From NCBI GenBank assembly GCA_024734495.1, contig JALMQS010000816.1, positions 9,023,092 to 9,087,091 of the forward strand: a stretch of 64,000 nt of DNA, given 5' to 3'. The first letter of the stretch is position 1. Every line of letters starts with the position of its first letter. The stretch is from Forficula auricularia (Eukaryota > Arthropoda > Insecta > Dermaptera > Forficulidae). A program made the position numbers and the translations under genes. The notes under the pieces were generated by a model. It searched no databases. It had not been told where the DNA came from and worked only from the letters and a program-made list of their open reading frames with translations. Positions 478-49,700 of the stretch are shown one piece after another.

Positions 478-1505
478 GGGTGGTCATTATTTTGCCGACT
501 TTCGAATTTTGATGAGCGCATCCCTCTATTGTTCTAAATACCGAAAGTGTCCAAATTTTTAGCTAAATATTTTTATTTTAACTCTAGGTTCACAGCGAAT
601 GAAATTTTAAATGGAAAATACATTTATTTCTTCACTATATCGATTTAAAATTCTTTATCTCATTTAAAACATATTTAACTCGGCGAATAGCTTCAATATC
701 TTCCAAGTATATTTATGAAAAAGGGTAGAAGAATATCCATTTTGCATTAAAAACATAAAAGTTATAGTCTTGAAGTTATCATTCCACATTACTCACATTT
801 TCCTCAAATGTTTCCTAGTTTCAAATTTACGTTCTGCTCATTTCTAAGTGTAATAAATATACTTTGAAGATATTGAACTAATACGCTTAGTTAAATATCT
901 ATGTTAAATTGAAAATTTTTGTACCCAGAGTAGCAGAATTTTTATATATTGAAGGAGACAATAAAAGAGTGTGTCTTCTGCTGGAATTATAAATTTTATT
1001 TATTTATAACGAGATTATAGTTTCGAGGGCTTTGCCCTCTTCATCAGTCTATTACAATTGATTCACATGAATTAATTTATAAATTGTAATAGACTGATGA
1101 AGAGGGCAAAGCCCTCTAAACTATAGTCTCGTTATAAATAAATAAAATTTATAATTCCAGCAGAAGACACACTCTTTTATTGTCTCCTTCAATAAATATC
1201 TATACTTTAAACGTCTAAAAAATTTTGAATTATTTTAGTGAAAAAATACAATAGTTACATCTATTAAGAGTGAATTAAATTAAAATCACTCTTATTTAAA
1301 ATGTTTCACATAGAACCGACACCCAATTTCTTAAAAATTATTGATACATATCTTTTCCATTTAAAATACAATTTCTATAAGGCACGGGTTACTTTTCAAA
1401 ATATTGAACCAAGACTTAGCACACCTGATTTTCTGGAATTTCAAACAAAATAGGGCTGGAAAGGGGCGCTCGTTAAAATTAGAAAAAGGCCAAAATAAGG
1501 ACCAC
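478..1505. mobile_element. Transposon remnant with GGGTGGTC termini
   Basis: The left end reads TAGGGTGGTCATTATTTT and the right end is its inverse, AAAATAAGGACCACCTTA. The same terminal sequence bounds a palindromic element at 55275-55924, so this is a family. A separate 248-bp palindrome (947-1194) sits inside it. No coding potential remains. Ends and nesting are seen; the class is not assigned. Confidence 0.6.
947..1194. mobile_element. Foldback element with a hammerhead-like motif in each arm
   Basis: Near-perfect inverted repeat: TATTGAAGGAGACAATAAAA at the left is mirrored at the right, with a short spacer near 1060-1080. Each arm holds CTGATGA, a 6-bp stem GAGGGC/GCCCTC, then AAACTATA. 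On the + strand these are at 1094-1100, 1102-1116 and 1118 on; on the - strand at 1047-1041, 1039-1025 and 1023 on. The + copy has TAA where GAA is expected, and the - copy has a change in stem III. Between them, the two arms preserve every expected core base. Confidence 0.75.
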
Positions 1506-2438
1506 CTTAATATTTATTTTAGGTGCTGAGCGCTAGGTATGCGAGTTCCAATCGACTGTATGTTTAGCTATTACTTGAAATTATTTGAGAAAACATTTCT
1601 CATTTTATATCATTAACTAAAACTATATAATTATGTATATGCGAGAGATGGATGACGAGGGAAAGATACCAATCGATTTGATTGGGGAATAATGGAATTT
1701 AAATAATTATCGGAAAAGAGGTTTTTTTATCTAATTAGATTTTTCCTCTTATTAAAAACAAGGACTAAAGATAAATAAGGACACTCGATGGTGGAGAAGT
1801 TATCTCCGGAATCGAAGCAAAATACAAGGTATACATTAATTAATGTAAAATAATTGGTTTAATAAAATTTATAAAAAAAAAAAAAAAAAAAAAAAATTAT
1901 GTATATGCGTATATATCTAATATGCATTTATTTGTTATATAAATGTTTCTCCAAGATATTCAAAAATAATCTTCATATCTCTATCCTAATACCAAATTTT
2001 AATGAGCTCTCTCTTTGTGGTCCCTCGAAAGATTTTCCAGTTCCCCACCGTTAGATCATTAACCTTTTTCTCAGAAATTGAACAGTGAATTCAAAAAATA
2101 GTTCCCAATGACATTAATATTATTTGTTAATGATGATGACTTTAGAAAAAGTTCCATTTGCATCCTGAGCTGTATCCATTAGTATTTTTTCTGAAGAGAT
2201 TTGCTCGTAACATATGAATTCCAATCATCCACCAGCCCTTCACAAACAAATTAGATACAAATTCAACAAACGCATTCGTTAACTCGTTTATTCATATGAC
2301 TTCTAGAAACTAGAACTTCATAGACAGAGACATACAACTTTCAAAGACACGTATTTACAAATACCTTCGACTCAGACACAAACCCTGAAATTTCTTCCTT
2401 TTCATGTTTTCAGAATGGATGCGTCAATCTTACTTTAA
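1506..2438. other. Unassigned AT-rich stretch
   Basis: No gene or well-bounded element recognised apart from the poly(A) tract. Confidence 0.5.
1868..1898. repeat. Poly(A) tract
   Basis: Run of about 27 A on the + strand. It may be the tail of a decayed retroposon, but no head is recognisable upstream. Confidence 0.7.
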
Positions 2439-46700: not shown

Positions 46701-49700
46701 AGCTCAGGCTTGTTTGTTCGAATTAGAAGAATTCTTTCAATTGAAAACTTATAGAATTTCTCTTTTAACGATTAAGTGCTTGTACAATAACTAGCTCTCT
46801 CTGTTGCAGGGTCAAAGTACTGACCCCATTGTCCCTCGAACTCGCCATGCCAAAAACGAGCTCCCTCCCCAGAAGGCCAGCTTTTGAAGGCAACTTCTTT
46901 AGCCCAACATATATTATTAGTTCGGAATTCTGAGCCACATTTTGTAAATTTTAAACTAATATTTCTTCCATGCTCGAAGTAAAATAAAATAAGAAAATTC
47001 ATTTGGAAAATAATATTTTGTTACCCCGACTTACTTCGCTTTACTAACCCTGCTCAGTCCTATTTTGATAAAACGGGATGATACATGGCCTATACCACTC
47101 AGGAGACAATGGAAAAATACGTCAATAAAAGTTTCATCTCAATCGGATAAGAAATTTATAAGGGAAAGTGAAACAGTCCAAAAACAAATAAATAAGCATA
47201 TAAACTTTTCTTCTTTAAAACTTTAGATTTAAAAAACACTTTTTGGTTACTCTCGTTCAATACTTTTTTATTTTAATACTTCGCATACTTATAAAAAACT
47301 TTTCAGCGTATAAAAACAAAAACTACGTTTACTATTGATAGTATAAGATAAATAAAGAAGAATCACTAAATAAATTCTTCAAATTAATTTTATTTATGTC
47401 GGCGAGTCCAAGCGAATTTTCATATGCTAAAGAACCCTGCAATTAAAATTTAACACTGGTCCAAAATTCCTATTGGTGGGGGGGGGGGGGAAGAAGATGA
47501 AAGACTAATATTAAAAGTTAAAAGAAAAAAATAAAGACAAATAATTTAGAATAAATTTTTTTTTGGAGAGAGACGGACTGGTAGAAAATTTAAATGATGG
47601 AAGGCAACCCAAGAATAATGAAAAATATGCTCTCGAATAAAATATATTTATTGGGCAGTCATTTTTTCCTCCATTCAAAAACCGACGTTTCGGAGTATTT
47701 TCTCTCCTTCTTCAGGGTTTAAAAAGGGTCAATCGAGTGAAAGATACTTCCTCTTCTCTCCTTTAGTAGTACTCGAAATTTGTTATTTCTCAAAAAGAGG
47801 AATCAATAAAAAATTTTTAGTTAAGGAAAAAAATTCTATTGATGCCTCTGTTGAGAAATAACAAATTTCGAGTACTACTAAAGGAGAGAAGAGGGAAGTA
47901 TCTTGTATGTTTCACTCATTGACCCCTTTTAAACCCTGAAGACGGAGAGAAGATCCTCCGAAACGTCGGTTTTTGAGTGGAGGAAAAAATGTCTGTCCAA
48001 TAAATCTCTTTTATTCGAAAGAATTTTTTTCATTATTCTTGGGCTGCCTTTCATCACTTCTCAAATAAAAATATTTTTTTATTATTCATCTTTAAACGAT
48101 ACTATTGTAGACTAAAGTAAATTAGAAATCGATATATAAAATGAATCGGCTGTCCCAAATGTAATTACGGGCTGGCATTTCTTTTTTTAAAACATAAATG
48201 AAGCAAACTTATAGAAGTGCATGGCTAGATACATATTTTTCCTATCTACGAATCTATCTATCTATATATAATACAATTTTTTACAAAACAATCTAGAACA
48301 AGTTTATTTTCAACCAAATGTTTCGGAGAATTTTTCCTTTTTTCACTGGTAAAATTTCCAAAAAAGAAAAAAAGTTACTTCCTATAAAATTCAGGAAGCA
48401 ACTTTTTTTCTTCTATCTTTTTTTAAAAAATTTTCCATTGAAAAGGGAGAAATTATCCCGAAAGGTTTGGTTGAAAATGGACGTGTTCTAGATTGTTTTG
48501 TAAAAGATTTGTATTTTTTTAATATTTTAAATACAATCAATAAATAATTTTTTTCTTTTATCTACATATATCTATATCTATACTTAATAATAATCGGCTT
48601 AACGACGACGGCTTACACTGCTTGATTGGCCAAAGAGATCCATTGGAGGTCACTGATTGACTGTGCTTAATGGGTTAAATAAAGATGAAGGAATCCAATG
48701 GAGGTCATTGATTAGCCGTACTTAATGCGTTAAATAAATACGGATGAATTCAAAAAAATTTTAAATCTAAAATTTTCAAACAAAAAATACTAGAAAGTTA
48801 TTTGCTCTAGAAGAGTCCTTGTATTTAAAAGGAGAGATATGATTAAATGCTAATGATCCTAAAATTTAATTTAAAAGGAGAGATATGACTAAATGCTAAT
48901 GAACCTAAAATTTAGTGTGAGGGGAGGGGGTTCTGTCGTAAATTATTGTAAATCATCTTATTTTTTTACACGTTTTATATTAGCTTCGCCTGTATTTATG
49001 TATGTATGTATTTATCTATGTATCAATGTGACTTTTGTTCTGTTAAATTCCGCAAACATTTCTCTATAAAAATAATTGTTTACCTACTCAATTTAAATGA
49101 AATTATTTAAAAATAATAAAAATAAATACATTTTATTCTGTTAAGTGTTAGGAACTTTTCTCTATAAAAATAATTAAGACTAAAAAATAAAAAAATAAAT
49201 TCGTCGCCTTAGAATGTAAACCTGTTAAATCCATTTTTTATCAAATATGACATATTAATACCGTTCGAAAGAAAAAGAGATGCAGCATCGTCCAAATAAA
49301 ACTGCTACTTAAAAATACGATCGTAAGTTGTAGAAAAAAAATGTGAAAAATAGTTTCTTTCGATAACAACAATATTAAATTTTGTTTGTTTTTTCTCTGC
49401 CCTGTAAAAATTTCCTTTCTGAGTTACCAGGTTTACTCTCTAAGGCGACGAATTATATTTAAAAAAAAAAAAAAACTAAAAAACAGGCTTCTAAAAAGTA
49501 CAAAATAATGTAATCCTTTATTAAAAAGCGTGGGGCACTTTTGTCGAAATTAATTAAAAGTACATGTTTCTGCTTCCCACACTTTTTGATTAAGTATAGG
49601 TATTACATTATTTTGTACTTTTTAGAAGCGTGTTTTTTGTTTTTTTTAAATCATTTACCTACTATTATATTCCGCAATTAGAAAAACATTTTGGCGAGTT

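Follow-up and report, generated by a model that had tools for sequence, protein, structure and literature searches.

How a family of hammerhead-like motifs came to be dispersed among short foldbacks is the question raised by a 64,000-nt stretch of the genome of the earwig Forficula auricularia (assembly GCA_024734495.1, contig JALMQS010000816.1, positions 9,023,092 to 9,087,091), hereafter the window. A preliminary description of this DNA listed at least ten such motifs with covarying stems, hinted at Penelope retroelements, judged the set in short foldbacks around an insect kinase gene worth describing, and noted an extra nucleotide as a departure from the textbook core. We conclude that the motifs are very probably minimal type I hammerheads of several families of Penelope-like elements (PLEs), brought in by short, 5'-truncated, inverted PLE-driven insertions. 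The architecture, the covariation and the Penelope hint of the earlier account stood, while the novelty of the ribozyme class and of the extra base, and the foldbacks as a separate setting, did not.

The hammerhead layout can be read directly at 12 sites in the window (Table 1), named here by the position of their CTGANGA block, and both CTGANGA and GAA are intact in 10 of them. Each site consists of a stem I strand, CTGANGA, one base, a stem II hairpin, GAA, a short self-complementary stem III, an NUH triplet and the second stem I strand. Stem III is of three types in the window: ACGT, ATATAT and ACTATAGT. Replacement of GAA by CAA at 45287(-) and by TAA at 1094(+) means that G12 is lost in both. 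The stem I and stem II pairs listed previously were found again in this direct reading. The sites therefore have the core of the PLE-type minimal type I hammerhead, with CUGANGA, GAA and NUH between stems I and II and a reduced stem III. The Rfam hammerhead models, which describe the canonical textbook form, gave no match in the window at the gathering threshold or at E <= 10. The list returned at E <= 10 was made up mainly of microRNA hairpins under their cut-offs, several of them on foldbacks, and was rejected.

CTGANGA occurs 32 times in the window, compared with 15.1 expected. Twelve occurrences were read as hammerheads and the other 20 were not, as might be anticipated if the sites were chance motifs within AT-rich repeats. 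That explanation is refuted by shuffled, mutated-core and covariation controls, and we consider its probability negligible. A strict descriptor (stem I of at least 4 bp, stem II of at least 3 bp, GAA, A15.1-U16.1 and NUH) with one spacer base matched five times in the window versus a mean of 0.0 in 100 shuffles; with no spacer it matched once (46320, which has a decayed stem II) versus a shuffle mean of 0.03. In a 200-kb tile from another part of the genome (L029-L048), taken without selection, the descriptor matched six, zero and one times with spacers of one, none and two bases, where 40 shuffles averaged 0.025, 0.125 and 0.05, and six mutated cores gave a single match in total.

Covariation was computed for the ACGT type; the other two types were judged by eye. 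Alignment A3 holds 22 of the 44 distinct listed sequences, picked by eye for diversity. Seven of its rows had been retrieved with a pattern in which stem II is fixed, and a second count therefore used the remaining 15 rows alone (A5). Across nine proposed pairs, 84.8% of the cells in A3 pair compared with 57.2% after shuffling (score 0.685 versus 0.219, best slid register 0.260), and in A5 the values are 82.2% and 53.0% (0.759 versus 0.256, best slid register 0.240). None of 500 shuffles reached the observed pairing or score in either alignment, which supports covariation of stems I and II. Both-sided change is found in eight of the nine pairs, with no excess over shuffles (reached by 174 of 500 in A3 and 202 of 500 in A5), and further pair types in A5 likewise show no excess (83 of 500). 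Pairing in stem I weakens at the two outermost positions, each unpaired in 9 of the 22 A3 copies. By eye, stem II of the ACTATAGT type changes in step (GAGGGC/GCCCTC, GAAGGC/GCCTTC and GAAGAC/GTCTTC). The invariance of CUGANGA and GAAACGU in A3 and A5 is partly a product of selection, since rows were picked by those words, and independent support for the core therefore comes from the shuffle and mutated-core counts. As copies descend within families, the covariation shows from the aligned sequences that the stems were maintained in the source elements of these ribozyme families, not that each copy in the window works.

Stem II does not begin directly after A9, as it does in the canonical hammerhead. 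Exactly one base separates it from CTGANGA in 20 of 21 distinct cores (CTGANGA...GAAA with stem II of at least 4 bp, drawn from the window, the tile and the PLE loci with GIY-YIG, none fetched by a spaced pattern). The exception, in L029, has two bases and resembles a chance string; no core has zero. Over all loci the count is 43 of 44, a figure inflated by loci fetched with a spacer-demanding pattern, and an unspaced GGC/GCC stem pattern, the only version counted, occurs twice in 1.06 Gb. The one-base spacer is a regular feature of the hammerheads in this genome. The extra nucleotide noted earlier is thus real, but it is not a novelty, as known alignments include insertions of one or two bases next to CUGANGA (PMC10085705), and for this reason the spacer is not counted as defining for the PLE type.

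A pattern for one ribozyme subfamily gave 15,244 matches in the 1.06-Gb genome, and its reversed control gave none. PLE hammerhead motifs are reportedly known from the work of Cervera and De la Pena (2014) and Lunse et al. (2017). The Penelope connection holds here, as PLE open reading frames (ORFs) with the same ribozyme types are present in the same genome. We identified 150 scored GIY-YIG matches among 3,423 candidates, and at eight of the 12 loci fetched a matching CTGANGA...GAAA ribozyme lies no more than 1.5 kb away. The remaining loci are L049, L050, L053 and L054, with a weaker match to model R1 in L049; L055 and L056 look like copies of each other. In L061, a tandem PLE, a single 858-amino-acid stop-to-stop frame contains both RVT_1 (1.6e-16) and GIY-YIG (8e-6), and a ribozyme of the ACTATAGT type lies within the roughly 330 bp that separate the end of the upstream ORF from the next frame. 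In the tile, some 320 nt separate a PLE C-terminus from a downstream ribozyme of the ATATAT type, and a ribozyme of the ACGT type, with stem II GCTGC/GTGGC, is found near L051, L052 and L059. All three stem III types of the window thus occur downstream of PLE ORFs. The subfamily with stem II GGAG/CTCC, dominant on the right side of the window, is linked to PLEs through its tail, orientation and flanking matches, not through an ORF. The 112 matches to the encoded PLE protein include insect and other animal relatives, with 58% identity to an unnamed protein, 39% to one of Parnassius and 31-38% to those of Diabrotica.

A tandem arrangement around pseudo-long terminal repeats (pseudo-LTRs) is seen in L061 and in three GIY-YIG copies spaced 2,908-2,909 bp apart on one strand; in this interval (G000:C563:410889-418543, partly L061) the three are followed by one inverted match. 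Within the window, the sequence at about 1296-1345 looks by eye like what directly follows the ATATAT-type ribozyme in the tile PLE and is probably another PLE remnant.

Minimal hammerheads with diminished stem III have already been published in PLEs (PMC7761336, PMC7229834, PMC6155905), and the set can no longer be called novel. Two of these papers describe PLE hammerheads that share the type I layout, the diminished stem III, the high copy number and the pseudo-LTR location next to a PLE ORF (PMC7761336, PMC7229834).

The foldbacks are head-to-head inverted PLE insertions themselves, and not a separate setting for the hammerheads. Four pairs in the window have a ribozyme in both arms, and in each of them the left copy is on the (-) and the right on the (+) strand, so that both point outward, and near-palindromic centres are seen in foldbacks. 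Among 100 listed genome copies of one subfamily (contigs C1, C3 and C4), ribozymes within 1.5 kb of each other form 13 (-,+) pairs and one (+,-) pair. GIY-YIG matches within 8 kb of each other, among the 150, form 11 (-,+) pairs, two tandem pairs and no (+,-) pair. These counts bear on whether the sequences are non-LTR retrozymes, which are small ribozyme repeats arranged in tandem and spread by way of circular RNA. Type I hammerheads, a weak stem III and very high copy number would all fit, and the account of metazoan retrozymes describes type I hammerheads in small non-coding repeats. Those repeats are tandem, however, whereas close pairs here are inverted (PMC7229834). As the 100 listed copies include no same-strand ribozyme pair within 1.5 kb, and the insertions are inverted and end at tails, a retrozyme origin is very unlikely.

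The ends of the insertions were compared in 26 pairs: 15 from contigs C3 and C4 (13 listed and two noticed on reading loci), seven from the tile (on C4) and four from the window. Window sites 6060, 33030, 40047 and 40481, with a ribozyme in one arm only, were moved to a survey of partner arms, and one weak pair of the tile, in L032 (E 0.54 and 0.42), was omitted. Direct matches of 11-19 nt flank the arms on the outside in 22 of the 26 pairs, whereas matches of at least 11 nt occur in 10.5% of mismatched pairings, and the mean match length is 12.5 in true pairs compared with 8.8. True target-site duplications are probably about 11-15 bp, because AT-rich flanks extend some matches by chance. In all 20 pairs with the tail motif ACCAGTCCGTC or a close variant, one arm carries it and the other does not (5 on the left, 15 on the right; contigs C3, C4 and the window), as scored with an expression composed after the tails had been seen, with one variant added for L014. 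The motif is missing from six further pairs, which belong to other families. These pairs thus have the inverted pseudo-LTRs with an optional tail on one that mark PLEs. The two arms are unequal in length, by 16-77 nt (median 45), in every one of the 22 pairs that have a direct match, although in the five of the six tail-less pairs that have one, the inequality rests on the position of that match, which a chance match could mimic. In the 1047/1094 pair the longer arm continues, by eye, into sequence like the L061 PLE.

Inverted arms with flanking direct matches would also be expected of DNA-transposon foldbacks, similar to miniature inverted-repeat transposable elements (MITEs), that carry a conserved hairpin resembling a hammerhead by chance. 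In such foldbacks the unequal arm ends, the one-sided tail, the variable inner ends and the presence of the same ribozyme types beside PLE ORFs would be hard to accommodate, and we find this origin scarcely credible. Retrozymes, MITE-like foldbacks and chance were accordingly rejected on the evidence of the missing same-strand pairs, tails and arm ends, PLE ORFs, and the shuffled, mutated-core and covariation controls.

Partner arms were also sought for 28 ribozymes first taken as unpaired, and 17 have one (L008a and L008b partner each other, and one match, 1.9 kb off, may be unrelated). Nine of the 17 partner arms begin at least 18 nt downstream of the ribozyme core and eight reach within 12 nt of it; in two of these eight, 33030 and 40047, the partner stops inside the ribozyme.

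The mechanism that we propose draws on biochemical work in which both strands of the target are cut and extended by a PLE protein; reverse transcription begins at two internal sites, and the tail is the interval that they enclose (PMC11167929). In the autonomous element, the ribozyme lies in the pseudo-LTR, between two successive ORFs. Insertion would begin with a staggered cut of the target, after which both strands would prime reverse transcription of the same RNA lineage at internal start sites, one distal and one proximal, about 45 nt apart. The two cDNAs would run inward, stop early and be joined, and the product would be a head-to-head inverted repeat in which the ribozymes read outward, a single tail is present and the target site is duplicated over roughly 11-15 bp. 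We consider the two-strand priming step taken alone to be somewhat more likely than not. The stricter rule, that the cut strands always prime the same RNA lineage from different start sites so that every inverted pair is one-tailed, could as readily fail as hold. If tail use were independent and even between the arms, the observed 20 of 20 would arise by chance about once in a million.

For the insertion step a different route can be envisaged, in which one copy snaps back and copies itself and the resulting palindrome is then integrated. Such self-priming was favoured in a study of Penelope families of the rotifer Adineta vaga, which describes head-to-head inverted pseudo-LTRs with a 31-bp tail optionally on one of them. 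The A. vaga elements are similar to those described here in these respects and in having target-site duplications (8-10 bp in A. vaga), but occur at low copy number, compared with thousands of copies here (PMC3846280). Self-priming would account for the near-palindromic centres. It would also account for the finding that the two arms of a pair fall into the same loop class in all 13 pairs (shuffling predicts 3.6; classes defined after seeing the loops), the ribozymes being identical in seven, as a shared lineage fits either route. However, self-priming copies one arm from the other, and equal ends would be expected unless a second rule trims one of them. The tail on one arm only in all 20 tailed pairs, the unequal arms in all 22 pairs with a direct match, and the second arm beginning at least 18 nt downstream of the core in 9 of 17 further cases are at odds with this, and self-priming appears improbable. 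One tail per pair, unequal arms and shared lineage together favour priming on both target strands from two start sites.

The closest comparison for two-strand priming is Poseidon PAc of Anolis, which has a ribozyme at the junction of pseudo-LTR and ORF, tandem elements, tail-defining internal starts, and both strands cut and extended. It differs in that no difference in start site between the strands was seen in vitro (PMC11167929), whereas all 20 tailed pairs here consist of one tailed and one untailed arm.

The lack of a strand difference in the PAc start sites and the shared loop classes weigh against our interpretation, and so do several other results. Four of the 26 pairs have a direct match of merely 7-9 nt and the largest match in a mismatched pairing is 21 nt, so that single duplications are not certain. 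Eleven of the 28 ribozymes first taken as unpaired yielded no inverted partner in the partner-arm search. We found no PLE ORF for the GGAG subfamily and none in the 64-kb window. ORFs in three foldback centres (L015, L016 and L021) were not recognised as PLE by eye, no family search having been run. Not all folded dimers show a double hammerhead. For PAc, ribozyme mutants had no effect on insertion in vitro and ribozyme cleavage was seen only with protein present (PMC11167929).

Stem III is merely a short self-complementary word (ACGU, AUAUAU or ACUAUAGU), and the predicted cleavage after NUH, by analogy with published PLE work, probably works best between two ribozymes. One such report states that minimal PLE hammerheads may self-cleave as dimers, with a role that is unknown (PMC7761336). 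In a foldback transcript one ribozyme would be sense and the other antisense, and a long hairpin would compete; any activity may therefore be more likely in tandem PLE transcripts.

Table 1. Hammerhead sites and inverted insertions in the window (positions count from its first nucleotide).
Feature	Coordinates	Strand	CTGANGA	Stem III type	Remarks	Evidence
Head-to-head inverted insertion	943..1198				Direct match TAAATATCTAT at ~892-902 and 1193-1203; left arm runs into tail-like sequence (~900-940)	
Head-to-head inverted insertion	28880..29130					Inverted-repeat listing and pair survey
Inverted insertion	32965..33107				Second arm ends inside ribozyme	
Inverted insertion	39974..40113				Second arm ends inside ribozyme	
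Head-to-head inverted insertion	45204..46403				Tail motif ACCAGTCCGTC on left arm only (near 45123)	
Head-to-head inverted insertion	47592..48059				Tail motif confined to left arm (near 47582); no direct match reaching 11 nt found	
Hammerhead core	1007..1053	-	1047	ACTATAGT	Stem III partly decayed; type matches L061 PLE junction ribozyme	
Hammerhead core	1088..1134	+	1094	ACTATAGT	GAA to TAA	Direct reading
Hammerhead core	6024..6066	-	6060	ATATAT	Inverted partner arm starts 68 nt downstream of core	Strict descriptor
Hammerhead core	28933..28975	-	28969	ATATAT	8-bp stem I	Strict descriptor
Hammerhead core	29036..29077	+	29042	ATATAT	Stem II shorter by one base	Direct reading
Hammerhead core	32992..33036	-	33030	ATATAT		Strict descriptor
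Hammerhead core	40041..40083	+	40047	ATATAT	Stem I weak	Direct reading
Hammerhead core	40440..40487	-	40481	ACTATAGT	Stem II GAAGGC/GCCTTC; inverted partner sought within 2.5 kb upstream, none found	Model R1
Hammerhead core	45249..45293	-	45287	ACGT	GAA to CAA	Direct reading and model R1
Hammerhead core	46314..46358	+	46320	ACGT	Stem II decayed	Model R1
Hammerhead core	47678..47721	-	47715	ACGT	Stem II GGAG/CTCC	Strict descriptor and model R1 (60.0 bits)
Hammerhead core	47930..47973	+	47936	ACGT	Stem II GGAG/CTCC	Strict descriptor and model R1 (54.4 bits)
Decayed hammerhead copy	16239..16283	-			Weaker match	Model R1
Decayed hammerhead copy	31082..31124	+			Weaker match	Model R1
Decayed hammerhead copy	33225..33266	-			Weaker match	Model R1

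The window contains other features. Four near-perfect inverted repeats (55342-55850, 26430-26827, 23550-23936 and 35822-36066; arms of 87-232 nt, 89-98% complementary) have no match to model R1 inside at E <= 1 and are probably other foldback or MITE-like elements. A hairpin with 47-nt arms at 38118-38222 (AATATGGATTTACT), whose sequence recurs beside the inverted insertion in L034, is likely a separate MITE-like hairpin. The open frame at 50122-50694 matches Pfam Pkinase (E 2.1e-9) and encodes what we take to be a GRK-type kinase. Two frames of short tandem repeats, at 24075-24461 (PRQNI) and 27897-28371 (KYFQ..PNIS), are probably minisatellites.

PLE hammerheads, diminished stem III, inverted pseudo-LTRs, the optional tail and two-strand extension in vitro are already known, and the ribozymes described here extend a published class. 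It is the back-to-back arrangement of the copies that gives a clue to PLE insertion. In the open-licence literature we found no report that connects a single tail in each inverted pair with priming on two strands, which is a weak negative. If the strict one-tail rule holds, target-primed insertion from two strands, known only in vitro in the literature searched, would have left its natural record in this genome as thousands of short pairs. Were pairs across the whole genome to prove one-tailed, two-strand priming and self-priming could be told apart with no need for a bench assay.

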